DNA from: Agarophyton chilense
Taxonomy: Eukaryota; Rhodophyta; Florideophyceae; Gracilariales; Gracilariaceae
Assembly (NCBI GenBank): GCA_030374765.1
Contig: JARGXX010000086.1
Coordinates: 868,001-932,000, forward strand
Reading direction: 5' to 3'
DNA length: 64,000 bases
A model generated the notes under the pieces. The model did not search any database. It had not been told where the DNA came from and saw nothing but the letters and a program-made list of their open reading frames with translations. Both the position numbers and the translations under genes were made by a program. This document shows, one piece after another, positions 2,097-58,798 of the stretch (positions are counted from its first letter, which is position 1; each line of letters begins with the position of its first letter).

Positions 2097-2116
2097 TATC
2101 CCCCTCCTGAGGCGCG
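2097..2116 (-). other. Polypurine tract of element A
   Basis: Read on the minus strand the sequence is a purine run, GGAGGGGGATA, ending exactly at the LTR boundary. This is the plus-strand priming site of LTR retroelements. The same tract occurs in B (35401-) and, slightly varied, in C (52951-). Its position fixes the element's orientation as minus. Confidence 0.85.
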
Positions 2117-2131
2117 AGTACGACATCCGCG

Positions 2132-4069: not shown

Positions 4070-4271
4070 CGGGGCACGCGATCCCGATGGAAAGCTTTCC
4101 CTTGTGACTTAGAGTAGTATCCCGAGTACTCGGTATTCCATCGATAGCTTCGAATAAAAACCAAGTGACTTGTGTAACCGAAACCTTCCTTCACTAGCCT
4201 GTTCTCAAGCAAACCTACTTCTCTTTTCTCTTCCACCGAGGTGGGTGTTATCCCACCTGGGCTTTAACAAC

Positions 4272-12142: not shown

Positions 12143-12280
12143 GGTCGTAGCGTTGACCACTAAGAATAGGACAACAAAAGCTTCCACCAAGTGGGTCCAA
12201 ACCAAGAAATTGGAAAGCAGATCTCGACGAGAGAAGACAGCACAGCAATGTGAAAAACAACCAAACCAGGTCCGCTTAGC

Positions 12281-12299
12281 CTTCTAAGTCGGGAGACCA
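12281..12299 (-). other. Primer-binding site of element A
   Basis: On the minus strand, three bases (AAC) after the 5' LTR, the sequence TGGTCTCCCGACTTAGAAG begins with TGG, the complement of a tRNA CCA end. The same 19 bases occur in B and in the otherwise diverged C, which is strong support for function. The matching tRNA would have A73 and a C1-G72 pair, as in eukaryotic tRNA-Tyr. The tRNA identity is inference. Confidence 0.85.
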
Positions 12300-12302
12300 G
12301 TT

Positions 12303-13096
12303 TGTAGTGCAACGCCAAGGGCGGCGGAAACACACGAAGATGTCCGAGTCTTCCTCCAAGTAGGGTAGCACGGCGACGGAGCCTCTCCGGAGTGAACACG
12401 ACTAAGTCGGGGTGTAAGGCCGAGGTTCACCGGCACGCCAAGCGGGGAGAGTGCGGGATGCTAGAAGGGAGCAGACCAGGGATGAGCTGTATTCCACGGG
12501 AGTGGGCAAGTGATAAAGGGGGGACCACCCAGTGGGGGCGATCGGGGGCATGGGCCACGAGAGCCAAAAGAAATATGTAGCAAACCCAATACTGGGGCGA
12601 GAACACGGCAGTGGTATGAAAGATATACACGCTAACAGAGGTGAGTCTCCTGTGGACGCAGGATGGATAAGTCTACCGTTAGTAACGCGGCTTCACCTCC
12701 GTAGAGTGTGGAAGACTCGCAAAAGCGGAAAAAGACTTAGAGCCAAGAACCCTGGTTGGGGAGGTTTACTGAGTGTCAGAGCGAGATCGCCCTGGCACTA
12801 TATAGTGTAGACTACTGTAGAGAGCTCCCTAACCTAGTGTAATAAAGCTAAATAAATAGAGAAATATCCAGCTATGCTGTGCCAACCTGTCCTGGGCCAC
12901 CCGTGCTACACGTGGGTAAGTCATACCCGAATCGGGGCCACGGCGCACGGCCGCCGGTGCACTTCGCGTACAACGCGTATACACCTGGCTACGCCAGCCC
13001 GCTAGTAGCGGTATTACTCATAGATCTCACAAGTATCGCCCGAGGCGGAAAAACAACCAAGTCCTGGAAAACGGCCCTCACGAGGGTTGCACTTCA
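12303..13096 (-). repeat. Element A right LTR (5' LTR in element orientation)
   Basis: This 794-bp LTR has the same boundaries as the left one and about 17 differences from it. It adjoins the primer-binding site, so transcription of the element would start here and run leftward. The sequence to its right, beginning 'catttattg', is AT-rich host DNA. Confidence 0.95.
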
Positions 13097-34178: not shown

Positions 34179-34606
34179 TTAAATAGTATTTAAGACCGTC
34201 TAGGCTATCCACTTTAAACTTCTTCACATCAGAGAAACCCATGTTTTTTCTAAGAGGGTCTTCTTTGGATATTTCCCTACTTGTTCATTGGAGGCGCTTT
34301 TATTTGGGACTTTTATTCATGTTTGGTGTTTTCGATTTTTTTTGGTAGTCAAAATGAGCAGTGTATGGCAATATCTTTCGTATTCGTCGAACACTAATGT
34401 GCAAGTTGAGTCTTGTTTTTAATAAATAAACGATATAGTTTTCTGTAGACACGAGGCTGAATATTAGCCTTGTTCTTTTTTCAGATATTTTTAGAGCATC
34501 TTTAAGGTACGTATTGGGATTGATTTTGGTATGGTGCTTTCACAATCGAGGTATAGTCTTTAACTACCTACAATTCTGGTCCTTTACGTGAAGAATCGGT
34601 AGTTGT
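34179..34606. other. AT-rich flank of element B
   Basis: No gene is seen. It ends with the GTTGT target duplication (34602-34606) of element B. Sequence related to the Tc1-like remnant may continue here. Confidence 0.4.
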
Positions 34607-35400
34607 TGTAGTGCAACGCCAAGGGCGGCGGAAACACACGAAGATGTCCGAGTCTTCCTCCAAGGAGGGTAGCACGGCGACGGAGCCTCTCCGGAGTGAA
34701 CACGACTAAGTCGGGGTGTAAGGCCGAGGTTCACCGGCACGCCAAGCGGGGAGAGTGCGGGATGCTAGAAGGGAGCAGACCAGGTATGAGCTGTATTCCA
34801 CGGGAGTGGGCAAGTAATAAAGGGGGGACCACCCAGTGGGGGCGATCGGGGGCATGGGCCACGAGAGCCAAAAGAAATATGTAGCAAACCCAATACTGGG
34901 GCGAGAACACGGCAGTGGTATGAAAGATATACACGCTAACAGCGGTGAGTCTCCTGTTGACGCAGGGTGGATAAGTCTACCGTTAGTAACGCGGCTTCAC
35001 CTCCGTAGAGTGTGGAAGACTCGCGAAAGCGGAAAAAGACTTAGAGCCAAGAACCGTGGTTGGGGAGGTTTACTGAGTGTCAGAGCGAGATCGCCCTGGC
35101 ACTATGTAGTGTAGACTACTGTAGAGAGCTCCCTAACCTAGTGTAATAAAGCTAAATAAATAGAGAAATATCCAGCTATGCTGTGCCAACCTGTCCTGGG
35201 CCACCCGTGCTACACGTGGGTAAGTCACACCCGAATCGGGGCCACGGCGCACGGCCGCCGGTGCACTTTGCGTACAACGCGTATACACCTGGCTACGCCA
35301 GCCCGCTAGTAGCGGTATTACTCATAGATCTCACAAGTATCGCCCGAGGCGGAAAAACAACCAAGTCCTGGAAAACGGCCCTCACGAGGGTTGCACTTCA
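34607..35400 (-). repeat. Element B left LTR (3' LTR)
   Basis: The 794-bp LTR has TG/CA ends. The polypurine tract, GGAGGGGGATA on the minus strand, abuts it at 35401. It is nearly identical to the right LTR. Confidence 0.97.
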
Positions 35401-35420
35401 TATCCCCCTCCTGAGGCGCG
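35401..35420 (-). other. Polypurine tract of element B
   Basis: A purine run (GGAGGGGGATA on the minus strand) lies directly inside the 3' LTR, identical to that of element A. Confidence 0.85.
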
Positions 35421-35435
35421 AGTACGACATCCGCG

Positions 35436-37313
35436 ATGGTGGGCGACGCGCCGAGACGAATGCATAAAAGTGCAACCAGCTCGCTGGGATCCACTTCATC
35501 CGGTGCCAAGAAACGCAGTGCGGCAAAACTCCAGTCTCCTGGCAACAACCGTTCTCAACGTTCCATCTCAACCGATTCCGCATCCTTGCGTGCCAGTCCT
35601 CCGATTCCTCGGCATCGTCTCCCGCTTCGCCGGTCTCCTCTTCCGGTCATCCGGCCTCTTCGCTCACCGATGAGCAACCAAAACAATCAAACCAACCGTC
35701 TCCCTGCGGAGTACTTCTCCGGCATCCGGTCCGCTCCGCCTCCGCAAAGCGCGTCATCGGCTGCGCCGCAGATTCCTATCGCGAACGCGGCTGCTGCTCC
35801 GTACGGAATGTTCCCCCCGAGAGGGTGGCCGCCATACGACATGCTTGTCGGGCGCCATCCTGGGCATCATGCGTCCGTTCTCCGGCTTGCGCCATGGTTC
35901 TACCCGATTGCGGTGTTAAACGGAGCGCTCATAGCGATGTACACCGATGGAAACGGGATGCTGCCGGACGATATACCGGCCGTGGCGACAACTTCGTTGG
36001 ATTGGCGACGCCGCGTAGCGGTTCCGATCCACGCTGTGGCGCGCCGGGGTAGGGAAACCTCGGCTTCCGCTCATGCGGCCTTCGTTCTTCTTGGCCATCA
36101 ACGGCTTCGCCGGGCTCCTTTCGAATATCCCATCCCCGATGGTCTCGGCACCGACATTCGGCTTTACCGCACTCAAGGTGAGATTGGTTACGTCGACCGC
36201 CTGGCGGGTTTGGAAACACTCTCGTGGAGGGGCATCCCGATAGCACGGGAAGAGGCCATGTGCTGGACGCGACCGATTATCCGGGCAGAATTCCGCTACA
36301 TGCGTCGACTTGCGCCGGCCAACTTCCTCGCCCTGATCCGCTTCGAGCGTCGAGCACGATCCCGATTCGGGTATTTGGTCCCGTATCAGAACGTGGAGAT
36401 CGAACGCCTTCGCGTGGCCGACCGACGGGGTCGCTATGTCCTCATTCCACCGTGGTGGTTGAACCTCGAGGCCTGCCGGGGCTGTTACATCGAGCTGCCA
36501 CCCGTCATCACGTATTACGGTTCTTACCTCATCGAGGATCCCGAGTCCGGACTGTGGTCCGTGGTGATTACCGAATGGGCAGTCCGCGCGGCGGTGTTCC
36601 TCCTCTGGGAGGTGTATGACCAGTACAGACTGTGGTTCCTCCCGTTCCGGTTGAGGTCCGCGATTCGCAGCCTGGACCTGAGCATCCTACTTGGTGGAGT
36701 AACCAACTCCGGGGAAGTGGCGGGTCTTCTCGATTACATCGACCAGTTGGACTGGACCGCCGTTCCGATTGAACAAAGCGGGCGCACCGTGGGTAGCCGG
36801 GGTCAGGACCTGTCACCGGGAAGGCGTACTCCCTTGGGAGGTGATTTCGTATACTTTGACCCCTGGGAAGGGCACGAAATCTCCGCGGAGGAAGCGAACG
36901 AACTCCGGTTTGCACCACGCCATATCCCCGAGGGGCATCCCATCGGTTTCGTGGACGCGGATCAATATTACCACGTCTACGACGGCGACGATCCAATGGT
37001 GGACAACGAACCCAACGACGGGGAAGCGTACGCCGAGGCGGAGGTCGAGGGATCCGAAGCGGGAGGTCCCTCTAACGCGGGGACGCCGGCCACGCTTTAC
37101 GCGGGTTTGGATAACCCCGCGGGGGCTGGGTCGGAGTACGCGGTAGCTGGACCACCTCCGGTTCCACCTGTGAATCTCCCAAGTGGTGGGGCGTCCGCCC
37201 CAGGCGATGCGAGCTCCGCTCCGGCGGGTCAAGCGGCCGTGATCTCCCAGTTCCTGCGACAGGTGGGGCTGGGGACCAACGCAGCGAGTGGCGATGTTGC
37301 CGCGATGCGCTAG
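35436..37313 (+). CDS. Antisense accessory ORF of element B (625 residues, unknown function)
   Basis: This uninterrupted frame runs opposite to gag-pol in the gap between the chromodomain and the 3' LTR, its ATG 35 bp from the LTR. I recognise no domain. Residues 1-125 are Ser/Pro/Arg-rich and basic. Residues about 130-470 look folded, with hydrophobic and aromatic stretches (LIPPWWLNLEACRGCYIEL, VFLLWEVYDQYRLWFLPF). Residues about 470-530 are acidic (DYIDQLDW, FVYFDPWEGHEIS, YDGDDPMVDNEP) and the tail is Pro/Gly/Ala-rich. The TAG at the end replaces GAG of element A, so about 20 residues are lost. A homologous acidic segment occurs in the distinct element C, which argues for a real protein. 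Transcription would have to start in the LTR. Confidence 0.8.
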   Translation: MVGDAPRRMHKSATSSLGSTSSGAKKRSAAKLQSPGNNRSQRSISTDSASLRASPPIPRHRLPLRRSPLPVIRPLRSPMSNQNNQTNRLPAEYFSGIRSAPPPQSASSAAPQIPIANAAAAPYGMFPPRGWPPYDMLVGRHPGHHASVLRLAPWFYPIAVLNGALIAMYTDGNGMLPDDIPAVATTSLDWRRRVAVPIHAVARRGRETSASAHAAFVLLGHQRLRRAPFEYPIPDGLGTDIRLYRTQGEIGYVDRLAGLETLSWRGIPIAREEAMCWTRPIIRAEFRYMRRLAPANFLALIRFERRARSRFGYLVPYQNVEIERLRVADRRGRYVLIPPWWLNLEACRGCYIELPPVITYYGSYLIEDPESGLWSVVITEWAVRAAVFLLWEVYDQYRLWFLPFRLRSAIRSLDLSILLGGVTNSGEVAGLLDYIDQLDWTAVPIEQSGRTVGSRGQDLSPGRRTPLGGDFVYFDPWEGHEISAEEANELRFAPRHIPEGHPIGFVDADQYYHVYDGDDPMVDNEPNDGEAYAEAEVEGSEAGGPSNAGTPATLYAGLDNPAGAGSEYAVAGPPPVPPVNLPSGGASAPGDASSAPAGQAAVISQFLRQVGLGTNAASGDVAAMR

Positions 37314-37575
37314 GCCTTGATCACCCGCCTCCAGGGAGGTAAACAACCCGGGGGCGGTGAGCCGAACCCGTGACGGGGCACGCGATCCCGATGGAAAGTT
37401 TCCCTTGTGACTTAGAGTAGTATCCCGAGTGCTCGGTATTCCATCGATAGCTTCGAATAAAAACCAAGTGACTTGTGTAACCCAAAACCTTCCTTCACTA
37501 ACCTGTTCTCAAGCAAACCTACTTCTCTTTTCTCTTCCACCGAGGTGGGTGTTATCCCACCTGGGCTTCAACAAC

Positions 37576-40500
37576 CGATGCCGGGATTCCCGTCCGCGTT
37601 CTGCGGTGATATGACACCACCTTCGAACGTGGGAGATGTTCCATCGGCTCATCCGAATCCCATTCGGGCCCTAAACCGTACCAACGGACGAGTTATTGAA
37701 TATAACCATCCGGATGGTATGAGTGCCCCACTATGTGGTCGACCACGAACTCCTTCTCGTAGACTTCCCGCCCTTGCGGTTTACGCGTCACCGGACCAAA
37801 CCGGTGTACGTCCGCGGGTGCGTGTGGGCTACTGTGCCCTTCCCCCGAGGGGTCCATGCGTTGGCGTTGCCTTTCCATGCCCTGGGTAGGGGAACGAACC
37901 GGGTTCCGGGTTGCCTTGGCCGCTTGGCGGGTTGCTTCCGCCAAGGCGTCATGACGAAGAGCGTCAGTTCGACGGCTTCGGCCGGAGGCCTTCCCGTGGG
38001 GCAATTCTCCCAGTTTTTGGGTCGAAATGCTTTCCGAGAGTTCTCGTGCAAAGGTTACCCTTCGGGGGAACGCGGACTCATCCCAAGGCTGGGTTTCGCG
38101 GTCGCGTTCCGCGAGTCGTCGGGGTGAAATCCGTCGCGACGGTGCTGGACTTGACGCGGGAGGCGGTTTCATCACGGGGCGTCGTGCCTTGCCGGGTGAG
38201 CCGCCTTGGGCGTTGATTGGCGTATCTCCCGAGCCAGGTGTCGTCTGGTCACGTGACACGTCCGGCTGATGGCTGGGAGTACTCCGCGCAGTGCTGCGTT
38301 CCGCCTCCTCACGTGAGGGCGTGTGCAACGGAGCTGCCGGTATGTCTGCTCGCTTAAGCGACACAGTACCGCGACGGGCGTGCAACTCCGGGTAAACCGT
38401 GCCTTCCTCACCAACGGGCGGCGAAGTGCACGGCAAGGAACCCCTGCGGGGAGCGAGTTCGTCCTCAACTATCCCTTTCGAGGGTTCAACTTCACTCGGC
38501 GACGAGGTGCTTCCGTCCTTGACGGGCACATTCTCCGGGGTGACCGGTGCGCTTTCGACAACGCTGTCGGGGTCAACTGAGACACTCGGAGTGCGTCCGC
38601 CACTTCGCGCGGGTTCTGAACCAGCATCAAGCGTGCTGGGTGTGAATCTCCCGTCTGCTACGGTGTGCTTGCCCGGCTTAGCCGGTGTGTCCTGCGGTAC
38701 AATACGAGGGACCAATTCCGATCGATTCGGCCTAGAGGGGCCTGCGAGGGCCTTCTTAAAGTTTTCCAGCGTAGCTGGTGTCGACGAACCGTGACCCACG
38801 GGCTGCCGGTCAACGCTCGACGGCCTAGCCGGTCCAGTATCGCGAGGGCGAACAGCATCCTGCGACGATTTTGGTTTCGCTTCGGCGAGGGGGTTTCCAC
38901 TACGTGGTGCGTCCTGTCGAGTAGAGTCCCCGTGGGGAGTGCGATCAGACGCAGATGCGGTGGCGCTTCCCATAGAGGGTTCAGCAACGGCTGTAGCGCG
39001 CAAATGCGGAGATGCCACGTCGGTAGACGGGACGTCCGGATCACCGTTGTTCTTGCTGGTGTGTCCAGGAGTCCGTGCACCACGGTTGTCATGACGCGAC
39101 GAAGCGGTTTCCGTCTCTCGACGAGAGTTATGAGCCTCCTCCCCCTCCTGAGACGGAGCGGCATGGGGAGTGGTTGAAACGCCCAACGGGCGGGGGTAGA
39201 CACCGCGCCGTGGCGTGAGAAAAGAGAGTCCATTCTGGCCTTGGTCCGATAAGATCGGCAAGTCAGAGAGTCCCCGGGTAGGGTGTGGTAACGCAGAAGG
39301 TCTGGAAACCACGGCAGTGGGCTGAGCCACCGTTGTGTGCCGAGCACCATCATCCTCAGAGAGGGATTGTTGACCCATTTCGGTTACTTCCAACGTCGGT
39401 GGAGGGGCGAGTACAACGCGGTCGCGGGAGATCCGCTCATGAGCGTCGACAATTTCCACCACGATGGTGTTGTCTTTCACCGAAATGACCTTGTAAGGAC
39501 CGTCCGCGACGGAAGAAAGCTTGTGCTTCTTTTCCTTTTCAGGGTTCCAGTACTCCTTACGGACGAACACGAAGTCACCGGCTTTGATTGGCGGGGCCTT
39601 ACCGCGTACGCGAGAGTCGAAATCACGCTTGTAAGTGGCTTGGGCACGAGCCATCGAGCTTCGGGCGACCGGGATCAGCTTCGTAAGCCACTCTTTCCAC
39701 CTGTGGCGATAATCCTTCACGGAAGGGAACGCATCCAGCGTGGGCTGGGGTTCTAACGTGACAGCGGGCGGAGGGCGGGACAAGACCAGTTCGAATGGAG
39801 TCAAGCCCGTAGTACGGTGTACCTGCGTATTGTACGCGAACGTCAAGGCGTCGGTATATAAATCCCATGTCTTTGGGTGGTCGGCAACGTAAGAACGGAG
39901 AGACGCTAATAGCGTTCGGTTAAACCGCTCCACTTGCCCATTACACTGGGGGTGATAGGTCGTTGTGAACAGGTTCTTGATGTCAAGAATCCTGCGCACG
40001 TCCTCGAAGAATCGCGATGCGAACTGTTTTCCGTTATCGGATAGAAGATTAACCAGCGGGCCGTAGACGAATACCCAATGGGTTGCAAATGCTTGTGCAA
40101 CCGTGAAAGCGGATATCTTCCGTAAAGGTACGGTCCGAACCAGTTTTGAGAAACGATCCGTGATAACGAGTAAGATCTTATGCCCACGTCGTGTGGTGAG
40201 GAGCTCGCCGAGGATGTCAATGGCGACAAACTAGAGAGGAGCCCGTGCCGGGAATAGTTCAACTTCGTTGAGTACTTGCGAAGTTTCACCCGATTCTTAG
40301 CACATTCGGTACAAAACCGCACCGTTGCGTAGCAATCCACCGCCAGGGCGGGTCAGTAGAAGTTCCTTCGCAAAGTGAGGTTGAGTTTCCGTCCACCGGC
40401 GTGTCCACCAAGTTTCGCATAGTGCGATAGATGCAAAACTCTAGACTGTAGAGTATGCGGCACCACGACTTGTGGTGATGACTGAACCGTCCTGACGAGG

Positions 40501-43298
40501 TATCCAAGATCGTTCACCTCGAAAGGGAGTTGTGCACCGCCATTAAGCCAGGCGCGAATCTTCGTACAGAAGGGGTCACTGTGCTGTTCTCTGACCATCT
40601 CCTCCGGGGGTATCGGCACAAAATCACCCGGCGGGGGTTTCTTTGAATCGTCCGAGACGAGCAATGCGTCAATATCATCGTCCGATTCCGTGCTTTCGTT
40701 CCATTGATCGTGTAACCAATCCGGGTTTCCCGGTGTTCCATCGTCTACGACGAAGCAAGGTATATCCTCTTCATCGACGGCTAGAGCTTCCCCATTCGTG
40801 GGTAAACGCGAGAGCGCGTCCGCTTGCGCGTTCTGAGTGCCCTTCTTGTAGATCACTTCAAAGTCATATTCCGCGAGGCGGAGTCTCCATTGCCTTAAGC
40901 GGCCTGACGGCTCCGAGATGGTCATGAGCCATCGTAGGGACTAGTGATCCGTGTAAACGGTAAAGTGCACACCCATGAGGTAGGGGCGGAGTGTAGAGAG
41001 GGCCCACACAACTGCGAAGCACTCCTTCTCCAACACGGAGTAGTTCCGCTCGTGGACATTGGGCGAGCGTGACCAGTACCCAATGGGTGTGCGTTCTCCT
41101 TCGGGAGTAGTTTGAAAGAGCGCACAGCCTACCTGGTAGTCGCTAGAGTCCGTGTCCACGGAAAACGGTAGTCCGGGTTTCGGTAGCGATAGAATCGGTG
41201 CTGATGTGACAGCCTCCCTAAGGGAGTTAAAAGCATCCGTCTGGGCGGACGTAAAGGGGTCCAGTTTAGGTGGTTGACCTTTCCGCAGAAGCGCGTTCAA
41301 GGGGGCCGCGATGTCAGCGAAGTAAGGGATAAACCTTCGGTATACGTTGACCAATCCTAGAAAGGAGCGCAGTTCCGTCTGGGTAGCGGGTTCTTTCGCC
41401 TTGCGAAGGGACCTCACTCGAGCTTCCTCGATCATTACACGTCCAGGACGGATAATGTGCCCGAGATACTTCACAGTATCGGTAAAGAACTCACATTTCC
41501 TCAGTTTGAGGGTTATTCCAGCGTCACGTAGCGTGGTCATTATGTCCCTGACTTGGGTGAGATGGTCATCCAGATTGTCTGAGAATACAATGATATCGTC
41601 CAAATAGACGAGGCAAGTACGCCACTTAAAGCGGGCCAACAAAATGTCGATAGCACGCTGAAAGGTAGCGGGAGCATTGGTTAGACCAAAAGGCATCCGT
41701 TTGAAACGATAGAGTCCCGAGTGACAGACAAACGCAGTCTTATCTTGGTCCTCTTCTCTAACGGGAACCTGCCAATATCCCCAATTGGCGTCCAAAGCCG
41801 TGATCACGGTAGCAGTGCCGAGAGAGTCGATGTACTCATCCATTCGTTGGATCGGATACACGTCCTTGACGGTAACATCATTCAAGCGACGGTAGTCGAT
41901 GCAAAAGCGCCAGGACCCATCGGGTTTCGGAGCCAGTACCACTGGGGATGCCCACGGCGACTGAGCCGGTTCGATCACTCCAGCTCGGAGCATTTTGTCC
42001 ACTTGGAACTGTTCCTCTTCTCGAGCCTTGGGGCCTGCCCTGTAAGGGTGTTGAGCCACCGGTCGGGTGTTCGGCAATAAATCTATCCGGTGTTCCGTTG
42101 TATTTATCTCACCAAGAGAGCCATCCCACATTGTGGTAAACTCCCGTAACATCTCACGCAGACTTTCACGGTGTGATTCCGGTACATGACCGAGGTCGAG
42201 TTCCTCGAGTTCTTTCACGGGGTCTACCCGGTCGTAACTCGTCGGAACGGGCTTCTTTTCTGTTTCGGCAGGTTGCGATTCCGAATCATTCGGTGATTGG
42301 ACGGCAGCTTCCTCCCCCTCATTAGATTGAACGAGACCGAGGACTTCGGCAGCGGTCAGCCTAGTGGGGACCATCGCGGTGGGGTGAGGCATTACCGATC
42401 CAATAACTTGGTTTTTCACCAGTGACTGGGGGGTTGAGCCCAGATTGGCAACGAGCACGGTGAACGGCTTGTCTGGGACAATCTGCGCGACTCCATTCGC
42501 CACGGCGAGTTGATATCCATCGTACAGAGATGAGAGAGGCTGAATGACTCGTAAACCGTGTTGACGGGAAGTGACACGCACCCATACTTGGGACTCTGGC
42601 GGGATTCGGACAGACGCAGCCACGCGGAGCTTGGTAGACTCCCGAGAAGCGGGTGGAGGTTCCTGCGCGGCAGGGAGCGGTACGTGCTTCTTGGAGGCAC
42701 GCCGCAGCGGACGACGGACAATCGGGACCGACAAGCCGTCTTCCATCTCAACACGCTTTAAGCGGGGCCTTATGGCGTCAACGAATCTGTCACAGAAGTC
42801 ACATCCCAAGATGATGGGGGCAGCCAATTTCCGGCATACAATAAAGTCGAGTTTGACCACGAAGGAGCCCAAGCGAACGACGAGAGCAACGGTTCCAACC
42901 GTTGACAACGGGTTGTTATTCGCGTCCGCGACGTCGGGCGCCACGCCAAGGCGGATCTGAGACGGCAAGGGCGGGGGCCGCAGCGACTCCACGATGAAAT
43001 TCGGACCAGCACCTGTGTCCAAAACAGTAAGGACTCGAACCATAAACTGGGTAGAAAGGCCAAGGTCGGCATAAACCTTGTAATTGCGCTTGGCCATTAC
43101 TAAGACTCTATCCGGGAACCGGCGGTAAAGAACACGTTTCCACGGTCGACGTAGAACACCAAAGTGTTCAGAGTCCACGTCTGAGACGGCCTGTTTCCTC
43201 GTGAGGATTGTGACCGGGGAGCGAGGCGGAGACGCCTCGGGCGTCGTCAACCTCACTGTTGGGGACGCCTCTCCCAAAGGGGAGACTCCCGAAATCAG
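37576..43298 (-). pseudogene. pol: Element B pol, disrupted
   Basis: The domain order is as in element A. The protease active site is intact (LDTGAGPNF). Protease, RT and most of RNase H are open from 43277 to 40941. A TAG then follows YTDH (TCG in A). Downstream, TGA replaces TGG in the zinc finger at 40353-40355, TAG replaces GAG near 40234, one base is missing at about 40257, and TAA replaces TAC within the chromodomain at 37693-37695. The integrase C-terminus and the long Pro/Ser-rich linker (39999-37693) remain open. The ATG that begins pol in A is CTG here (43298-43296). Confidence 0.9.
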
Positions 43299-45423
43299 TT
43301 TTCCTGAGTCCCATCCGCCTGGGGCGGGGCCTCAGAATCCTGAACCCCTAGCAATGGGGCGCCAGCGGCGGGGTTCGAAGGAACGGAGCGGTGGTCGGAA
43401 GCCTGCTCGGCAGGGTAAAGCAACGCATTGCGCGGTTTCGCCTCCGGAATACTCCGTGGAAAATCGATCTTCGCTCGAAGATACGACGTCATCGGAACAA
43501 TCCGCTTTTCCACTTGGGTCAACGCCTCATAATTACCGATTACTCGGGCTACTTCCCTCATGGTGAGGATACAGTCCGGTGAAATGTGACCGTGTTCGTA
43601 ACATATGTGGCATATGAGTCCCGGGCGTGAGGGTTGCAAACCGGAGCGAGCACCCGTGAACTTCACCGCTTGGCGGGTATCCTTCCATCCAGGGCGACTC
43701 TGTCGGAGCGCACCGTTTGAATACGGGATGCGAGGTCCGTGAACACGGAGAGAGTCTGCGTACAGCAGGGGTCCATCCTGGGCCTTGTCATATGAGTCGT
43801 CCGTCGTAGACGGTAGTTCGGTTGTCAGGACCGAATGGATATCGCTTCGGGCGAAGTGTACGTTGTCGTTCTCCTGTTGGGGGCGCTCACTCGCAATCAG
43901 CGATAGGGATGGCGACTTCGTTTCCATCACCAACGCCTTGGCGGTTCGCGACCTGTGTCCGGGGGCACGAGCTCTTAAAGCGTCACCTTCCGCTTGCGCG
44001 TGTTGGACCAACTCCAGATACGTGGTTTTCCTTCGGTCTTCCCGGTAACGGGCCACGAGTGTTCGGATAGCGGGGTTCAGTCCATCGATGAACATGGTGC
44101 AGCGCTCTCCGGCGGAGTGTACGTTCCCACTACGGTGGAAAGCCTTGTTCAGGCGCACCGAGAATTCGGTTTCCGTTTCTCCAGACTTCTGGCGCGTATC
44201 GCGAAGAGCGAGAATGGCCGACTGAATCGCGTGATTAGTGGCGTTGGACCTCAAGAGGTATTGTACTGCTTCTGGCCAGCAGGTTACCCCTCCTTCGGAG
44301 GCTCTGGACGAACCTCTTACAGAGTTGTATTGATCCTCTGCCAGGCCTTTCATAAAGTACGGGAGTGCAATAAACGCCTGTCTTTCGGTCATACCGAGAA
44401 TATCCGCTTCGGCGACGAACCTCGCAAGGAAAGCCAACACCAAAATGGGTCTTCTCCAGAAAAGTTCTGGTTCCTGAGGGACAGTTGCATACGATTTATG
44501 CAATCCTTCACTCTACCCGTGCCACGGGGCGTGCGATCCAAAGAGGAGTTCTCTAGCCGATAGTATCGGTAAGAAACCAACTTCTTGTACAGGGGGTTGG
44601 TGCATTTCAGCTCCTTCAACCCGGAGTGTTTCCTTCCCTTCTCGCGGGCGCGGATCACACCTTGGGTGGCAGACGACCGTTTAGAACGGGATGAACGCCT
44701 GCGATGGCCATCGTCAGAAGACGAATCTGACGAGTGCGACCCATTTGAATGGTGAGAGCCACGCGACGACCGTGAGGAGTTCGACGAGTCCGAGTCATCG
44801 CTGTCACGCTTCCCACGCCGACGGCGGATATCGTCCCTTTTCCTCTCGTGTTTCGCTTGGTGCGACACAGCAACCGGCTTCTCCGGGACGTCTTCCATCA
44901 AGATGGTTTGCTCTAACGTCTGGAGACGGGCGCTAACACGATTGAATCGGGTCTCGACACCTTCCACGTAAGCGGCGGGACCACCAAATCATTCCAACAG
45001 GGTGTTGACGTCCGCCCGCAACACGCGGAGGTCGTCAACCACTTCCTTCATGGAAGAGCCATCACACCTGGAACGCAGGGCTTCGAACTCTTCCACGAAG
45101 GCATTGTGCGCTTCCCGCATTACGCGGATCTGCTGCCTCACACTTGAGTTTATGTCGATGTGGAACTCGTTTTTCTGGGGTTTTTCGTCGGCAGGAGCCG
45201 GGTCATCCACGGCAGGGGCCGGTCCAGCACCAGAATTGGGTCCATACTTCGATGACTTAGGCGGTAGCTTGTTGTTCTTGGAGGAGTTCGACCCCTTACT
45301 CTTGCCTTTCGGAGCGGCTGGAGGTAACGGCGGGGGAACCCTTCCAGGGTCCGCAGGCGCCACGTCATTGACGGAACGGCTCCGCGTGATCGCGGGTTCC
45401 GCTTCCGTCGGTAGTCGTGACAT
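43295..45423 (-). pseudogene. gag: Element B gag, disrupted
   Basis: It starts at ATG 45423 (MSRLPTEAE). TGA at 44989-44991 replaces the TGT of A, and a one-base deletion near 44447-44450 shifts the frame in the gag domain (GEDPILVL). The C-terminal part, 44503-43295, is open and holds the rest of the gag domain and the CCHC knuckle (CHICYEHGHISPDC). Confidence 0.88.
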
Positions 45424-45561
45424 GGTTGTAGCGTTGACCACTAAGAATAGGACAACAAAAGCTTCCACCAAGTGGGTCCAAACCAAGAAATTGGAAAGCA
45501 GATCTCGACGAGAGAAGAAAGCACAGCAATGTGAAAAACAACCAAACCAGGTTCCCCTAGC

Positions 45562-45580
45562 CTTCTAAGTCGGGAGACCA
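45562..45580 (-). other. Primer-binding site of element B
   Basis: TGGTCTCCCGACTTAGAAG on the minus strand, three bases inside the 5' LTR; the same as in A and C. Confidence 0.85.
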
Positions 45581-45583
45581 GTT

Positions 45584-46378
45584 TGTAGTGCAACGCCATA
45601 GGGCGGCGGAAACACACGAAGATGTCCGAGTCTTCCTCCAAGGAGGGTAGCACGGCGACGGAGCCTCTCCGGAGTGAACACGACTAAGTCGGGGTGTAAG
45701 GCCGAGGTTCACCGGCACGCCAAGCGGGGAGAGTGCAGGATGCTAGAAGGGAGCAGACCAGGTATGAGCTGTATTCCACGGGAGTGGGCAAGTAATAAAG
45801 GGGGGACCACCCAGTGGGGGCGATCGGGGGCATGGGCCACGAGAGCCAAAAGAAATATGTAGCAAACCCAATACTGGGGCGAGAACACGGCAGTGGTATG
45901 AAAGATATACACGCTAACAGCGGTGAGTCTCCTGTTGACGCAGGGTGGATAAGTCTACCGTTAGTAACGCGGCTTCACCTCCGTAGAGTGTGGAAGACTC
46001 GCGAAAGCGGAAAAAGACTTAGAGCCAAGAACCGTGGTTGGGGAGGTTTACTGAGTGTCAGAGCGAGATCGCCCTGGCACTATGTAGTGTAGACTACTGT
46101 AGAGAGCTCCCTAACCTAGTGTAATAAAGCTAAATAAATAGAGAAATATCCAGCTATGCTGTGCCAACCTGTCCTGGGCCACCCGTGCTACACGTGGGTA
46201 GGTCACACCCGAATCGGGGCCACGGCGCACGGCCGCCGGTGCACTTCGCGTACAACGCGTATACACCTGGCTACGCCAGCCCGCTAGTAGCGGTATTACT
46301 CATAGATCTCACAAGTATCGCCCGAGGCGGAAAAACAACCAAGTCCTGGAAAACGGCCCTCACGAGGGTTGCACTTCA
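45584..46378 (-). repeat. Element B right LTR (5' LTR)
   Basis: The 795-bp LTR has one extra base near 45599 relative to the left copy and about three substitutions. It is followed at once by the GTTGT duplication. Confidence 0.97.
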
Positions 46379-51508: not shown

Positions 51509-52037
51509 GTCAGGTCACACTTCGTCGCACCCCAGCAGGTGATGACGCCGCGACGTTCCTTCGCGCCCAATGGTAATGGGAGCAACTAGGCGCTCACGTC
51601 CCCTGGGTCAATCATGAGGCAATCTGGACTTCGCCCTGACGGTCGAATCCTAAGGAGGGAGATATGTGAAGGAGCAGCGATAACGGTTGAGCCCTGCAAG
51701 CCCCCAGGGCCTGAGGTATCCTACAGACGCCACGTGGATTGGCCGACCTCAGCTGGACTTCTTGAGATAATTATTTTATTTTAATTAGTGCAATAGATTA
51801 ACATTACAGTGCCAGGGAGATCCCAGCGCTTCCCCATTGCTATTTACTTGACTTGAGTTACGTTTATCCCTTAGAGTAAGGTAGGAACCGTTAGGATACT
51901 AAATTACCTTCTTTGGTACATTAGTTCCACCAATTGGTCTTCAAGCCGTCGTTACCGTAACTCGGAGCTGTAGGACTATGCAGTAAACGCCAGCCCATTG
52001 CACCAAGTATTCTGGGAGTGCCGCCGTCAAGGATACG
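51509..52037. other. Inverted spacer holding the end of an older element (E)
   Basis: The 529-bp spacer, including both swapped pentamers, lies between the inverted LTRs D and C-left. At about 51652-51664 the plus strand reads AAGGAGGGAGATA followed by TGTGAAGGAGC: a polypurine tract and an LTR start in the style of A, B and C. The rest (51665-52032) would be part of that LTR, with its AT-rich block near 51775. Turning the spacer round places this tract in front of the orphan ORF at 59085. Confidence 0.6.
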
Positions 52038-52950
52038 TGTGGAGCAAAACCCGGCGACGGGAAGTGCTCTCAAGGTGTTCGAAGCCTTGCTCCCTGGGGG
52101 AGGCAGACTCAGAGACAGAGCCCTCCGTTCCACCCGTAGTGTGGGGTGTTACTCCCACGGGGGATTCCGGCAGTACCGACGGAGGTGGGGGGTAGAAACC
52201 ATGGATCGGGAATGGGTATGGGTATCCCAAAGAATGGGGGAAAATCCGGCGAAGAGGAAAAACGGGGCGAGGGTCGGGCACTAACAGGCACCGGACCCGA
52301 GAACCAGAAAACGGGCAAAACAACAAAAGGAACCCAATGCAGGGGCGAAAACCTGTCCTCGAAAGGAAACACAAAAAGCACGCAACAAGTAAGCAGAACC
52401 CCCACGGGGTATCGTGCACGCAGGTCGTCTGAGCGGTCCCAAGGGGGTGGTTGCACGGAACCCAAACGTGGGCACTCTCCAAGTGGAGTCGTGTTCCTAC
52501 GCAGGCGTTGCTAACCAGAGCCCGTTCCGGGTTGTAAGGCCGAAACGATGGCGACGAAGAACCTCTAAAGGTATCGAAGACCAACCTTGGTTACCATTTA
52601 CTCTGAGCTTCGGACTGGCAGATCTCATCCCCCTAAGTAGGGCCCACTAACTAAACTCTACAGTAGTGCACACCTGCTCAGGGCCATACACGTGGAGATC
52701 TAACTGTCAGGGCCCAAAAGTCCAACGTTCTACAAATATCCGAAAATCGGTGCCAAAATTAAGCCACGTGTATCACGGGGCCAATCCAACCATGGGCCAT
52801 CCAAATTTTCCCTTATAGGCGAAATATAACCAGAAAACAGTGCCACCTCAGCACACCTTAGAGGGGATCATAATCATAACCCTCGGAGGGTTCAATCCTC
52901 ATTCTATGAGTTGCATCTTCAAGTATCCCCTGACTGGGCGTTGCTCTACA
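52038..52950 (-). repeat. Element C left LTR (3' LTR)
   Basis: It has TG/CA ends and a polypurine tract at its inner edge. It is a different LTR family from A/B, though the ends are similar (TGTGGAGCAAAAC ... TTGCTCTACA). It is preceded by ATACG, the reverse complement of the CGTAT left of solo LTR D. Confidence 0.95.
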
Positions 52951-52968
52951 TCTCCCCCTCCTTAAGAC
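52951..52968 (-). other. Polypurine tract of element C
   Basis: On the minus strand, AAGGAGGGGGAGA ends at the LTR boundary. Confidence 0.8.
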
Positions 52969-53031
52969 GAGGAAGAACATTCCGAGCCGCGGCTGTCTAG
53001 CTCTCCGATCAATATACATACTTCCCTCCCA

Positions 53032-53929
53032 ATGGGGTCCTTCACCACTTCTGAGGATCGCCACAAAACCGGCACATCGGTACAACTTTCTTCTACTCCT
53101 CCGACTTTCGGCGATAAGCAACTTCTCGCAACAGCGGTCTCAACCAGCCCTCTCAAGGGGATGAACCCATACGTGATCAACCCACTCTCGGGGCCATCGG
53201 CCTCCGCGCCGGGGGACAACGAAGCTCCCCAGCAGGGTGGAGATTTCTCCGATGCTACGGACCATCATGCGTCAGATCGACCTTGTCCCAGCGTTTTGTT
53301 CGGCCAGCAACGTGCAGGACCTGTATCCAATCTTGGACGTGATCGACAACACCCAATGGGATCGAGTTCCAATGGAAAAACAGCCCGCAGGGGAAGGATC
53401 CGTGCGAGACAATTCTCCTGGCCGGTACGATCCGGGCTCCGGTAACTGGGTCTATTACAATCCCTTCGAAGGGGTTCGCATCAGCGCGGCGCAAGCACGG
53501 GCGCTGATTGACTCGCCTCGACCGATGCCGGTGGGTCACCCGACGGGGTTCATTCATACCGATGATTACGAGTACGAGCCTCCAGTAGACCTGGACGATC
53601 CAGCGTTGGATAACGACATGCCAGCTCCTAGTGGAGTACTCCCTGTGGAGCCATCTGCACCCTTCCAACCAGTGGGAACGACCTCAGCTGCGGCGGCGAA
53701 TGCCTCCGGTGGCGTTCCATCTGCTCCCCCCGGGTGGGGTGTGAACACCCTTGCGCAGGCGCCGGTTGCCACTCTGCAAGTGGACAGTGTGCGACAAGGC
53801 CTCGTGAACGCAGTCATTCCGATTCCCCCGGGTATGACGGATGTGAGCCAGATGTTGGCTTTCGCCTCGGCGTACCATCAGGGTCAGAATCCCAACGGTG
53901 GGGCGGGTCCCTCCTCGGGCTTTCCGTAG
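53032..53929 (+). pseudogene. Antisense accessory ORF of element C, shortened
   Basis: The frame open from 53237 to 53929 contains WDRVPMEKQ, NWVYYNPFEGVRISAAQA, MPVGHPTGFIHTDDYEYE and DDPALDNDMP, then a Pro/Ala/Gly-rich tail. This aligns with LDWTAVPIEQ, DFVYFDPWEGHEISAEEA, IPEGHPIGFVDADQYYHV and DDPMVDNEP of element B. A frame starting at 53032 (MGSFTTSED) gives a Ser/Thr-rich N-terminus but is out of phase with it, and about 900 bp of the central region present in B is missing. It sits in the same place and orientation as in A and B. Confidence 0.75.
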
Positions 53930-54326
53930 TTCCGCCTTCGGGCAATTGTAGAGTCCATAGCTTGGCGACAATAGTAAACTTCTGATATTTGCATAACTTC
54001 TTTTCTTCTTCCTTCCTAGGATCTTAACTTCTACTTCCTCTTCTTCCTTCTTAGGATCTTCTTCATCTTCGTCTTCATCTTCTTCCCTTCCTAGGGTCCA
54101 ATCTTCTTTTTAATCTTCTTCTCCACTTCGTGGGTCTTCTTTTCCTTTTTCATCATAAACTGTCTCGATAACCGGTGTTGTGTTCCCCGGTTAACGGCGC
54201 TAGGCCGAGGGCCAGTAGACCTTCTCTCTCAATACGTGTTCTTCGGGATACTCTCCTCAATTCCTCTTCAGAGGTCCAACATCTTCCTCACTTCGAGGTC
54301 GCATCCACACCAGTTCCCGTGGTGGC

Positions 54327-54644
54327 TTACCCGACTTGGGCACGATCCAGACTTGGAGGCAAGGTTACCCGAGCGCGTCGGTGATAGGATAAAACCTTAG
54401 ACCTCGGAAGGTGCTCAATGGGTTCCACTGTATCTTCATCAGGCGAGAATCCGTACCATCGGACTTGGTAGCGAACTTCTCCCTCGGGGGTGTAGATGTG
54501 ACGCACGATGCGATCGATAACGAATTCCTGCGGGTACACTTTTCCCTGTTCGGGCTTCTCTTCCATCTTGGAACGCTCAAGTTCCCTTGAAGGTGTTAAC
54601 GTGGGGTCTAGACACACCCCTGTGGGTTCTTTTCCGTGTTGCAA
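54327..54644 (-). pseudogene. Element C pol remnant: integrase-terminal chromodomain
   Basis: The frame contains YPQEFVIDRIVRHIYTPEGEVRYQVRWYGFSPDEDTVEPIEHL and ends shortly after. This is a chromodomain homologous to the C-terminus of element A pol (EFVVDHIVGH ... LVRWYGLGP). It is an orphan: the catalytic integrase that should precede it is missing. Confidence 0.85.
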
Positions 54645-55626
54645 GCGGGTCTCAGCACTTCGTCCAAACGGCGCCGAGTGGCCTGTGGGCTACGTTGTAA
54701 CTTCCGTCTACGGAGTCAAAACGGCCCAGTTTTGGGTTTTTCTTAAAGCTGAGATCTTCCCAATAACAACGGTGTTCTTAGATTCCGTGACAGTTGAGAA
54801 ACAGCGACGCGGTAGCGTCTCCAATTTCAGGGGGGTAAGACTTCAACGTCAACCCGAGCTACGGGGACGAATGTTGCTCTGGTGCAACGCGCCGTGCGAC
54901 GGAGGCGGTTTACGCGACGGTTGGTCGTCAGAGCCTTTTGATTGGCTCGGTGCCATTCGACGTGGGCCACGTAAATGCGCAGGCGCCAGTTGCCACTCCG
55001 CAAGCGGATATGAGGTGGCGCTTTAGGCACGCGCTAGCACTCTCCTGAGCTGTCCCCGACGGGTCTCACTCATTTATTTCCCATTCCTGAGGGTTCCAGT
55101 GTCTCCATAGGAGTTCCTATTCCCATCCCATGACGGAGAGCCAAATTTGGTCAACCTCGTCGTCGAGATCTTCCCCGTGCGGGTCCGCTGACACAGCTCG
55201 TTCCCGAGAAAGCGGGGTGTGAGTGTGCGACACCTCAGTGTCTCTTCCGCGGCGGCGGGTGATCGTCGGCTCTGTAGGCGTTCCGGCTGCGGAGTTCTCC
55301 ACACGACTCTCCCTAGGCGGGTTTTCGTCATCTTTTCTGACGTCGTGCTCGGCTGGGTCGGCGGTGATGTCGCTACCCATATGCTGGGGTTGTGACTTCT
55401 CTGTCGCCGGCTCGGTCGGGCTCGCCGTCTCACTGTGAGAACTAGGTTCCCTGTTAGGGCGACTGGCTGACGCCGAAACATCGTCCTGCGAAGGAACTAA
55501 GTCCTCCTCCCCCTCCTTAGGCGGGGAGCCAGGAGGCTTGATTACCTCCGGTGGGGGAGTAACTCTGTAAGAGTTCGTTGACTGGGCCCTTGAGGGAGCG
55601 GGCCCAGGTTCAGGAGTACCCGAAGT
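54645..55626. other. Element C internal mosaic: linker remnant and duplicated fragment
   Basis: On the minus strand 55074-55600 encodes Pro/Ser/Thr/Arg-rich sequence resembling the long linker before the chromodomain in A and B. At 54976-55007 a 33-nt segment repeats 53752-53784 of the antisense ORF in the same direction with three mismatches. About 4.5 kb of pol is absent between the gag end and this linker. Confidence 0.6.
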
Positions 55627-57657
55627 TTAGTTTTTCGAAGTGGACCCCACCGAATTCGGTGCAGCTGCCTCGAAGGGGACCGGTTGTTCCCCGTTCGCGG
55701 GTACAAGTTCTATATCCCTGTCAGCAAGGTGAGCTCGGAGTATCCTTTGTTCCTCATAGGACCTACTTGGGACTCGAGCTTTCTCCTCAGGGGTCAGAGC
55801 CTCGTACTGAGCGATAATTCGTGAACCCTCCCGCAGGGGAAATGTCCAGTCTGGTGCTTTGTGACCACGGAGGTAACACAAATAGCAAATCAGCTCTGCC
55901 GGCTTCGGTTGTGGACGTGAATCCACGCGACGTGGTGCTGTATCCTCCCATTCGAAGCGAGAGAACCGAGCAGCGGTATTCGCAACAGGTAGCGATGCGG
56001 CTGGCACCCTCCGTCCGTGGGTATAGAGCGCAGGGTCTTCATCCATAGTCGGAGCGGATGTCGACGGCAACTCAGACGTACCCATAGATTCGGGGTTGCT
56101 TCCCATGAAGTGAATGTTATCATTGACCCCCACAGGGGTACCGCCTCCTGCGAGTGACAAAGACGAGTTACCTCCATCGGCGAGGAGTGCACTTGTCGGC
56201 CGACTCTTTCGGTTCTGCCGGGCACGGAGAGTATCCCCCTCAGCCTGGGCGTACTGAACCACTTCCAAGTAGGTCAGCTTGCGCTTCTCTTCCCGATGTC
56301 GGGCAACCAATGCCCTTATCGAGGGGTCCAAACCATCCACAAACATGGAGCATCTCTCGTAGGCGGGGAATACATTCCCGCATCGGTGAAACGCTTTATT
56401 CAAGCGAGTTGAATACACCGTTTCGGTTTCCATCGGCTTTTGCCGCGTATCCCTTAATGCAAGGATTGCTTCCTGAATCGCATTTCCAGTAGCGTATGAC
56501 CTCAAGAGGTACTGCACCGCTTCGGGCCAGCACGTGACTCCCCCTTCCGAGGCTCGGGATGATCCACGGACGGAGTTGAACTGGTCTTCAGCCATCCCCT
56601 TTAAGAAATAGGGTAATGCAAGATAGGCTTGCGCTTCACTCATACCGAGGATGTCAGCCTCCTGGACGACCCTCGCAAGGAAATCGAGCACCAGAATTGG
56701 GTCTGTTCCTGTGAACTCCCTCTTCTGTAGGGTGATGCTCAGCCTTTTGATGTAGTCCTTGACCTTACCCGTTCCGCGGGATGTTCGATCTCCAGAAGGG
56801 TTATCCAACCGGTAATAGCAATACGATAGCAGCTTCCGATAGAGAGGATTCGTCGGCTTCAGCTCCCTTAATCCAAGGTGTTTCCTACCCTTCTTCCGGG
56901 TACGGATTGCCCCTTGAGAGGTGTAAGTAGCCTTCGACCGAGTCGCCCGGGATGACCGGCGTCCATCTTCACTATCCGAAGATTCGGAGGACGAACTCGA
57001 TGACGAGCGATTGGGATCGGAATCCGATAAATCCTCTTGGAGGTGAACGCTCTTCTTTGACTTGCGGCGGTCCCGTTTAGCGGAGCGGTGTTCTTCGTCT
57101 CCCGAAACGTCGGGTTTATCCTTCGAGGCTTCTGCGTCTCCGTCCATACGGATAATGGCCTCGAGGGTGTCCAGCCGAGCTCGGAAGCGTTCTGCTTGCA
57201 CGCGGTGTTCCTCCACGAGGCTCCGGTACTCCTGGATAAAGACCCCAGGGGTACCAAAGCTTTCCAAAAGGGAGTTCACATCCCTCCTCAGGGTACGAAG
57301 GTCATCGGCGACTCCCCGCACCTGGGCGTCCTCCACCCTGAGGCGGAGGGTAGTAACCTCCTGAAGGAGCTCGATATGAGCCGTGTTGGCGATATCAATT
57401 CGAGTCTCCAGGCGCTGTAGTTCAGGGTCGGCCCGACTTCGGGGTGCTGCTGAGGGGGTCTCCACCACTGGAGCTGGGCCCACAGCCACGACCTCTCGAG
57501 GACCTGAAACCACTGAGGGTGCTCTCCGAGTGTCCGGATCGATACCGGAATCGTTCCGATCTTCGGGAATTGAGCTCCTCGACCTAGGCGGGGCCGGGGG
57601 CACTGAATCCGCTTGACGGTTCGATCCAGTCCTGGAACCACGGGTAGGCGGCGTCAT
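55627..57657 (-). CDS. gag: Element C gag, intact (676 residues)
   Basis: This is the only unbroken gag in the window. It has a Pro/Arg/Ser-rich N-terminus, a predicted coiled coil at about 80-170 (LQRLETRIDIANTAHIELLQEV, FRARLDTLEAII), a basic/Ser-Asp patch, and a retrotransposon gag domain from about 315 (DPILVLDFLARVVQEADILGM, LALPYFLKGMAEDQFNSVRG, LRDTRQKPMETETVYSTRLNKAFHR). The zinc knuckle near 590 reads CYLCYLRGHKAPDW, so the last Cys ligand of the CCHC motif is Trp. Gag packages the element RNA; an intact gag without pol suggests that pol functions must come from another element. ATG 57657 lies about 205 bp inside the primer site. Confidence 0.9.
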   Translation of the reverse strand: MTPPTRGSRTGSNRQADSVPPAPPRSRSSIPEDRNDSGIDPDTRRAPSVVSGPREVVAVGPAPVVETPSAAPRSRADPELQRLETRIDIANTAHIELLQEVTTLRLRVEDAQVRGVADDLRTLRRDVNSLLESFGTPGVFIQEYRSLVEEHRVQAERFRARLDTLEAIIRMDGDAEASKDKPDVSGDEEHRSAKRDRRKSKKSVHLQEDLSDSDPNRSSSSSSSESSDSEDGRRSSRATRSKATYTSQGAIRTRKKGRKHLGLRELKPTNPLYRKLLSYCYYRLDNPSGDRTSRGTGKVKDYIKRLSITLQKREFTGTDPILVLDFLARVVQEADILGMSEAQAYLALPYFLKGMAEDQFNSVRGSSRASEGGVTCWPEAVQYLLRSYATGNAIQEAILALRDTRQKPMETETVYSTRLNKAFHRCGNVFPAYERCSMFVDGLDPSIRALVARHREEKRKLTYLEVVQYAQAEGDTLRARQNRKSRPTSALLADGGNSSLSLAGGGTPVGVNDNIHFMGSNPESMGTSELPSTSAPTMDEDPALYTHGRRVPAASLPVANTAARFSRFEWEDTAPRRVDSRPQPKPAELICYLCYLRGHKAPDWTFPLREGSRIIAQYEALTPEEKARVPSRSYEEQRILRAHLADRDIELVPANGEQPVPFEAAAPNSVGSTSKN

Positions 57658-57863
57658 GCTGCAGACACGACACCGACGATTCGGGGTAACGATGAAATCC
57701 GATCACGAGATTCCCGGAGAACGGATGACGTAACACAAAACAAAAATAAAAACCAATTCCACCCTTTCCAAAGGGGACCACTACAACAAATCTTCACGAC
57801 TGTGCTTCCTCTTCCAAGAGATATTCCAACACGTGGAAGACCAACCCAAAAGTCCGAGAACGG

Positions 57864-57882
57864 CTTCTAAGTCGGGAGACCA
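57864..57882 (-). other. Primer-binding site of element C
   Basis: TGGTCTCCCGACTTAGAAG on the minus strand, two bases inside the 5' LTR; the same 19 bases as in A and B. Confidence 0.85.
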
Positions 57883-57884
57883 CT

Positions 57885-58798
57885 TGTGGAGCAAAACCCG
57901 GCGACGGGAAGTGCTCTCAAGGTGTTCGAAGCCTTGCTCCCTGGGGGAGGTAGACTCAGAGACAGAGCCCTCCGTTCCACCCGTAGTGTGGGGTGTAACT
58001 CCCACGGGGGATTCCGGCAGTACCGACGGAGGTGAGGGGTAGAAACCGTTGGATCGGAAATGGGTATGGGTATCCCAAAGAATGGGGGAAAATCCGGCGA
58101 AGAGGAAAAACGGGGCGAGGGTCGGGCACTAACAGGCACCGGACCCGAGAACCAGAAAACGGGCAAAACAACAAAAGGAACCCAATGCAGGGGCGAAAAC
58201 CTGTCCTCGAAAGGAAACACAAAAAGCACGCAACAAGTAAGCAGAACCCCCACGGGGTATCGTGCACGCAGGTCGTCTGAGCGGTCCCAAGGGGGTGGTT
58301 GCACGGAACCCAAACGTGGGCACTCTCCAAGTGGAGTCGTGTTCCTACGCAGGCGTTGCTAACCAGAGCCCGTTCCGGGTTGTAAGGCCGAAACGATGGC
58401 GACGAAGAACCTCTAAAGGTATCGAAGACCAACCTTGGTTACCATTTACTCTGAGCTTCGGACTGGCAGATCTCATCCCCCTAAGTAGGGCCCACTAACT
58501 AAACTCTACAGTAGTGCACACCTGCTCAGGGCCATACACGTGGAGATCTAACTGTCAGGGCCCAAAAGTCCAACGTTCTACAAATATCCGAAAATCGGTG
58601 CCAAAATTAAGCCACGTGTATCACGGGGCCAATCCAACCATGGGCCATCCAAATTTTCCCTTATAGGCGAAATATAACCAGAAAACAGTGCCACCTCAGC
58701 ACACCTTAGAGGGGATCATAATCATAACCCTCGGAGGGTTCAATCCTCATTCTATGAGTTGCATCTTCAAGTATCCCCTGACTGGGTGTTGCTCTACA
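57885..58798 (-). repeat. Element C right LTR (5' LTR)
   Basis: The 914-bp LTR is adjacent to the primer site and is followed by CTGAC, the reverse complement of the GTCAG right of solo LTR D. Confidence 0.95.

Follow-up and report, generated by a model that had tools for sequence, protein, structure and literature searches.

Does the long open reading frame that runs opposite to gag-pol in a retrotransposon of the red alga Agarophyton chilense encode a protein and, if so, what might this protein do for the element? The frame lies in element B, one of three LTR elements (A, B and C) in the window, by which we mean the whole stretch of 64,000 nucleotides analyzed (contig JARGXX010000086.1, positions 868,001 to 932,000). 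We refer to this antisense ORF and its homologs as aORF. A first-pass annotation of the window had proposed it as a conserved antisense accessory gene.

The antisense frame and its host elements

In element B, the ORF list and profile searches place gag, RT and integrase on the minus strand, opposite to the aORF, and the direct repeat GTTGT, read off the flanks, forms the target-site duplication of B. All features are given in Table 1. The ATG of the aORF is found on the internal side of the 3′ LTR, directly beyond the polypurine tract, and its distance of about 35 bp from the LTR edge, as annotated at first, is 35 bp in A/B. A tract similar to the polypurine tract of B was also seen in copies of families C, D and E. 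The stop of the aORF in B is an early one (codon 626), 20 codons short of the A/B family length of 645; in B coordinates, the usual stop of the family is at 37371–37373.

Elements A, B and C share one arrangement of LTRs, gag-pol side and aORF. The polyprotein of A contains the Pfam domains RVT_1, RNase H, Integrase_H2C2 and rve as well as a chromodomain match below the cut-off (PF00385, residues 1134–1178 of 1190, E 3.3e-4, 21.0 bits with a cut-off of 25.1). At the flanks of A, no matching target-site duplication was seen. Element C retains gag, with 60% identity to gag of A over 398 aa, and the chromodomain end of pol, and no match to protease, RT or integrase was found in C at E 1e-3. The initial claim that all three elements carry a long antisense ORF thus holds for B, where it is near full length, but not for the other two copies: the aORF of A is interrupted by two stops, and that of C is broken, with most of the core lost, out of frame and 230 listed codons remaining.

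Table 1. Coordinates of retrotransposon features in the window.
Feature	Position	Strand	Remark
Element A	1303..13096	−	LTRs 1303–2096 and 12303–13096, 97.9% identical
aORF of A	2132..4069	+	two internal stops (row C86:870132); longest listed piece 3071–4069, 332 aa
3′ LTR of B	34606..35400	−	from LTR comparison; presumed site of the antisense promoter
Polypurine tract of B	35401..35412	−	AGGAGGGGGATA on the minus strand, between LTR and aORF
aORF of B	35436..37313	+	625 codons from ATG to early stop
AATAAA of B	37456..37461	+	possible polyadenylation signal of the aORF transcript; precedes the convergent pol end
3′ pol part of B	37693..39999	−	integrase end, long Ser/Pro-rich tail, chromodomain region
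RT and RNase H part of B pol	40941..43277	−	RVT_1, 3.4e-36
gag of B, partial ORF	43295..44503	−	zinc-knuckle match only at noise level
5′ LTR of B	45583..46378	−	99.5% identical to 3′ LTR of B
Element C, pol-deleted derivative	52035..58798	−	LTRs 52035–52950 and 57882–58798, 99.1% identical
Remnant aORF of C	53032..53929	+	ATG 53032; internal deletion and frame change; C-terminal part open 53237–53929
gag ORF of C	55627–57657	−	676 codons open

Some further observations were made in the window. A primer-binding-site-like sequence, TGGTCTCCCGACTTAG, is common to A, B and C near the 5′ LTR (12280–12303, 45560–45583 and 57860–57885), and in pol of B an unusually long Ser/Pro-rich stretch separates the integrase from the chromodomain region (37693–39999). 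Apart from the elements, genes with long ORFs were seen, such as Ulp1-like, Erv1/Alr, RbfA and a rhodanese-methyltransferase; the latter (24042–26648) combines UPF0176/rhodanese domains and an O-methyltransferase in one long ORF and looks like an unusual fusion.

Families, selection and decay across the genome

The genome (79.8 Mb, 135 contigs) was searched for further copies. With the protein of B, 70 copies were scored out of 1972 first-look candidates, and in 27 of these 70 the matched stretch is free of stops, the match being partial for two of the 27 (hand count); copies with the frame kept, which the first-pass annotation had expected elsewhere, are therefore present. Nine further A/B sites were found by an exact-pattern search. 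In the 30 A/B copies fetched after the protein search (L009–L038), the frame is open to codon 644 or beyond in 15, and the stop was found at codon 646 in 28, at codon 645 in one and was unseen in one, in agreement with the 645 codons first given for the family. Since the copy lists of A/B, C, D and E were picked by protein score, these intact counts lean toward preserved copies, and so does the scarcity of indels among the 31 copies aligned.

The aORF accompanies elements with a reverse transcriptase. Pairing was assessed for the best 75 RT matches of A/B (93–100% identity), and for 67 of them an oppositely oriented aORF lies at a distance of 3.6–5.4 kb, mostly 5.3 kb. Two of the eight RT matches without a paired aORF (C34 and C13) have a core-pattern match about 5 kb off. 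Conversely, 12 listed aORF sites have no RT partner among the best 75, and at least three lower-ranked A/B-like RT matches outside this set each have a nearby aORF when checked by hand.

The core motif VPYxxVExE matched the genome 280 times, compared to 0 matches for the reversed control, and some of the first 100 places listed belong to a third, older family, D (at least 24 copies, 72–100% identity). All four D copies that were read are decayed. Additional lineages with 87–89% identity appeared in the RT search, initially without known aORF matches. Two of them, E and F, were known beforehand from their RT matches alone; for one member of each, place and strand of a putative aORF were computed from the other families and the sequence at that place was then fetched. 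An aORF was found in both lineages (2/2) and on the right strand in each case, with 54% identity to A/B over 280 aa in E (E-value 2e-89) and 59% over 390 aa in F (E-value 1e-168), the latter being open across the entire 1.3 kb fetched. Family E has at least 150 scored copies, many with frames open for 618–685 codons, and family C likewise has at least 150 copies. In total, the genome has at least five element families with homologous aORFs (A/B, C, D, E and F), and the matches listed amount to at least about 400 copies. In A/B, the ORF lies between pol and the 3′ LTR. In C, it adjoins the LTR and is opposite to RT in the pairs checked by hand; in E, it adjoins the LTR-side tract and is opposite to RT. 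In F, where the pol side was read, it is opposite to RT, and in D, where the LTR side was read, it adjoins the tract.

Family C deserves separate mention. Its intact copies elsewhere have frames open for 640–650 codons, or 618 codons counted from the ATG in 5 of 30 C loci (L045 and four others), and the ATG in C is located 81 bp past the LTR edge. The broken aORF of the window is no isolated case: copy L044 is of the same type, and 33 of the 150 C-type matches listed are short, starting at query residue 1 or 2 with a frame of 250, 253, 254 or 269 codons (hand count). Judging from these copies, the truncated type seems to have undergone amplification of its own, and with this share of short or broken matches the aORF is not required in cis for amplification. 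The C-like truncated elements constitute a gag-only non-autonomous family, presumably mobilized in trans.

Two clusters were seen besides. At C68:3138493-3157576, three family-E aORF matches with identical scores follow each other in exact steps of 9,197 bases, perhaps a tandem array sharing LTRs, and RT matches cluster at uneven steps at C22:1516245-1534083.

The coding capacity of the aORF was assessed in several ways. When positions 34601–38600 were shuffled 300 times (order-2 Markov), the longest ORF over all six frames showed a median of 231 codons, a 95% point of 325 and a maximum of 432, compared to 625 codons in B. When intact copies of A/B (L013) and C (L045) are compared, the aORF frame shows 36% identity over 600 aa (E 9e-109, 340 bits), whereas the best other frame pair, which is on the opposite strand with the wobble positions facing, reaches 186 bits and contains 19–23 stops in the four copies counted (two A/B, two C). 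Coding by the sense strand of this region was rejected on these grounds. Codon usage did not distinguish the reading frames of the aORF region. Identity by codon position is.528/.592/.342 between the aORFs of A/B and C, compared to.64/.77/.34 for gag of A and C, and among the 214 residues identical between the A/B and C aORFs, not counting Met and Trp, 131 are encoded by different codons.

Ratios of dN/dS (NG86) were 0.29 for A/B and C (core 0.21), 0.27 for A/B and E (core 0.20), 0.23 for the core of C and E, 0.19 for A/B and F, and 0.27 for C and F; as dS in these pairs is 1.7–2.4 and thus near saturation, the values are rough. C and D gave 0.09 at a dS of 5.4, while A/B with D, E with F and the gag control of A with C are saturated and yield no ratio. 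Between families, the aORF thus shows purifying selection on its protein, with dN/dS of about 0.2–0.3, which marks it as a real protein gene. The proposal of an antisense accessory gene conserved between A/B and C is borne out by this selection, by a length beyond the shuffle maximum and by homologs reaching at least five families.

Within the A/B family, the picture is different. In 31 recent copies, the raw dN/dS of the aORF is 0.66, compared to 0.72–0.99 in the five other frames. Relative to the expectation from the mutation spectrum, N/S of the aORF is 0.83 for singletons (other frames 0.88–1.22) and 0.96 for shared changes (other frames 0.89–1.17), so that amino-acid changes show no deficit among the shared changes of these copies. 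Stop mutations were observed 21 times among singletons (20.7 expected) and once among shared changes (3.9 expected). Copies thus decay almost freely after insertion, and the within-family data neither prove nor disprove selection. A low dN/dS among recent copies was rejected as proof of selection; the dN/dS comparison suggested in the first-pass annotation gives near neutrality within A/B and strong constraint between families. For C, one of the 16 aligned loci (L041) is of the short type, and within-family figures were left out.

Between A and B themselves, counts are small, with dN/dS of 0.79 for the aORF, 0.70 for the 3′ pol ORF, 0.64 for gag, and 1.24 and 0.89 for two overlapping RT ORFs; gag and pol appear to decay like the aORF among recent copies. 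An open frame of at least 1800 codons was found in 5 of the 75 best RT matches, and equal decay, extrapolated by hand from 27 of 70 stop-free copies at 645 codons, would leave about 4 of 75 open at a length of about 1900 codons. Since the intact fractions match equal decay of a shorter target, the earlier argument that the aORF is far better preserved than gag or pol, and hence of special importance, falls. The inference from better preservation to an essential function was rejected, as length explains the preservation.

The nearly neutral decay of recent copies would suit a function of the antisense RNA alone, which might, for instance, feed back on the element as double-stranded RNA, in which case the open frame would be incidental, and non-coding antisense transcripts are described for micropia and TART (reviewed in PMC7264820). 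However, a protein frame conserved with changed codons at between-family dN/dS of about 0.2–0.3 argues against such a function, and the codon pattern has largely refuted it already. We consider it highly improbable.

The protein and its possible role

Intact A/B and C proteins have 618–645 residues and 68–70 kDa. In both, a Ser/Pro/Ala-rich N-terminus is followed by a core of about 260 residues that is basic and rich in Arg and Trp (pI 9.9 in A/B, 8.7 in C), and the tail is acidic and rich in Gly, Ala and Pro (pI 4.1 in A/B and C); the part after the core plus the tail has a pI of 4.1–4.3. A second conserved block, [DN][FW]VY[FY][DN]P, is present in A/B, C and D and varied in F. A likeness of this block to methyl-CpG-binding domains was considered but dropped, as profile searches gave nothing. 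The pI of the N-terminus is 12 in A/B and 5.8 in C; as it is basic in A/B only, a conserved nuclear signal cannot be claimed. In a crude membrane test, the maximum 19-residue Kyte-Doolittle mean was 1.54 in A/B and 1.30 in C, the usual cut-off for a membrane span being 1.6, so no segment of either protein is hydrophobic enough for a typical span.

The first reading had recognized no relative of the protein, and database searches agree. Nothing beyond noise was found among the protein families of Pfam, NCBIfam and PHROGs, searches of PDB sequences gave nothing or single chance-level matches, and no relatives were found in phages, IMG/VR or GTDB genomes. As the latter three collections are prokaryotic or viral, absence from them says little about eukaryotes. 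AlphaFold, applied to the window sequences alone, gave no confident fold (mean pLDDT 28.9 and 41.3).

With the ATG so close to the LTR, there is scant room for anything other than an LTR-borne or boundary promoter, and from its position the LTR is plausible as the two-way promoter first suggested. The antisense mRNA would start in, or adjoining, the U3 part of the 3′ LTR and would end near the AATAAA ahead of pol. The C copy L045 has a TATATA about 20 bp ahead of the antisense ATG (position 331 in aORF orientation), which is absent from the A/B copy L013. Should this be a TATA box, transcription would begin at the ORF or within it, and the true start codon may lie further in. A bacterial promoter scan was set aside as inapplicable to this genome.

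A regulator or cofactor is the best fit for a protein that would be soluble, combines a basic core with an acidic tail and would have an antisense mRNA of its own. The protein would act in the nucleus and in trans, binding nucleic acid, and candidate tasks would be the tuning of LTR transcription or accompanying the cDNA to chromatin. To the model as a whole, i.e., an element-encoded accessory gene with an antisense mRNA from the LTR region and a nuclear, trans-acting, nucleic-acid-binding regulator or cofactor as its product, we assign a little less than an even chance.

The basic core would also serve a cofactor of virus-like particles or of the pre-integration complex rather than a regulator of transcription. 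Such a protein would be expected in elements with RT, as found for 67 of the 75 best RT matches, and the codon-position pattern of the aORF resembles that of gag between A and C. Nevertheless, it would be odd for a stoichiometric particle protein to be made from an antisense mRNA of its own, and no capsid or nucleocapsid family matched the aORF protein in Pfam, PHROGs or PDB searches, so that we regard a particle or integration cofactor as unlikely.

The RT of B is about 85–91% identical to that of the other listed families, whereas the aORF of A/B shares 38–59% with C, E and F; on these identities, the aORF is evolving much faster than the RT domain. Fast evolution is common in proteins that meet host factors. 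A factor countering host silencing of the element would be in line with this rate and with retention of the aORF in high-copy families. However, fast evolution suits other roles too, and we hold an anti-silencing function on its own to be quite improbable. More broadly, an undescribed protein family, so far seen only within these chromodomain-bearing elements, could provide the major families with a second gene unit driven by the 3′ LTR, its product being a self-encoded regulator or anti-silencing factor that aids their expansion; we think of this as possible, though doubtful.

Finally, the aORF could be cargo, either captured from the host or nested in the element as a foreign gene. Captured extra ORFs are described for LTR elements of rotifers (PMC5408684), and the aORF protein matched none of the element protein families in Pfam and PHROGs. 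Against this stand its presence in five families, at an age sufficient for near-saturation of synonymous sites, and the lack of a relative outside the elements in the databases searched, although a host copy outside elements could be hidden below the top-ranking matches to which the genome listings extend. A cargo origin therefore seems very remote.

Comparison with known systems

The architecture as such is already known, described as aORF-3R and as eORF-3′R (PMC6317226). An antisense ORF between pol and 3′ LTR is described for Grande (gene23), RIRE2, Retand (TRP28), PvRetro13 and Boty of Botrytis, and plant aORF-3R are said to be present in most copies of a family and to be of unknown function (PMC7264820, PMC11963269). 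The aORF resembles them in its place between pol and 3′ LTR, its orientation and its presence in most A/B copies (67 of the 75 best RT matches); it is opposite to gag-pol and exceeds the 250 codons given as the threshold for eORF-3′R (PMC6317226). Likeness to Grande, RIRE2, PvRetro13 and Boty is one of layout. For Retand, the domain of TRP28 (PF04195, Transposase_28) gave no match above the cut-off in the aORF or in the genome; the sole genome match is sub-threshold (E 0.05, 20.2 of 26.2 bits), and the listed aORF closest to it is about 9 kb away. In the literature searched, which was largely without subscription papers, no title or abstract concerned an antisense ORF in algal (or similar) chromodomain elements. 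Nor did the protein family itself, its association with chromodomain-like ends or its sharing by five families of a single genome come up in this literature.

Precedents for a nuclear role come from plants, where the Grande protein is described as nuclear and that of PvRetro13 as having an SMC domain (PMC7264820). The promoter of Grande gene23 is placed in the region upstream of the gene (PMC7264820), whereas the ATG of the aORF is only 35–81 bp away from the LTR. HBZ of HTLV-1 is likewise an antisense gene and a precedent by position; it is reported to be transcribed from a 3′ LTR promoter and to encode a nuclear protein of 31 kDa which lowers sense expression (PMC10186651). In contrast to HBZ, the aORF protein has no bZIP (Pfam gave other families at noise level) or other known domain and is about twice as large (68–70 compared to 31 kDa). 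An extra gene after pol is also known as env-like/ORF3 of bdelloid rotifers (PMC5408684) and as plant aORF-3S (PMC7264820). The aORF shares this position; however, aORF-3S is in sense orientation and env-like proteins have membrane segments, whereas the aORF is antisense and its product has no strong membrane segment.

Antisense accessory ORFs of LTR retrotransposons have been reported from plants and one fungal element. Here, one protein family with a strong coding signal is found in at least five element families at widely different divergences and in at least about 400 copies, a set deep enough for attempting a structure and for testing promoter and function. While Retand is called a non-chromovirus (PMC11963269), the host elements of the aORF have a chromodomain-like end, which places the aORF architecture in such elements, with a protein that gives no match to the plant TRP28 domain.
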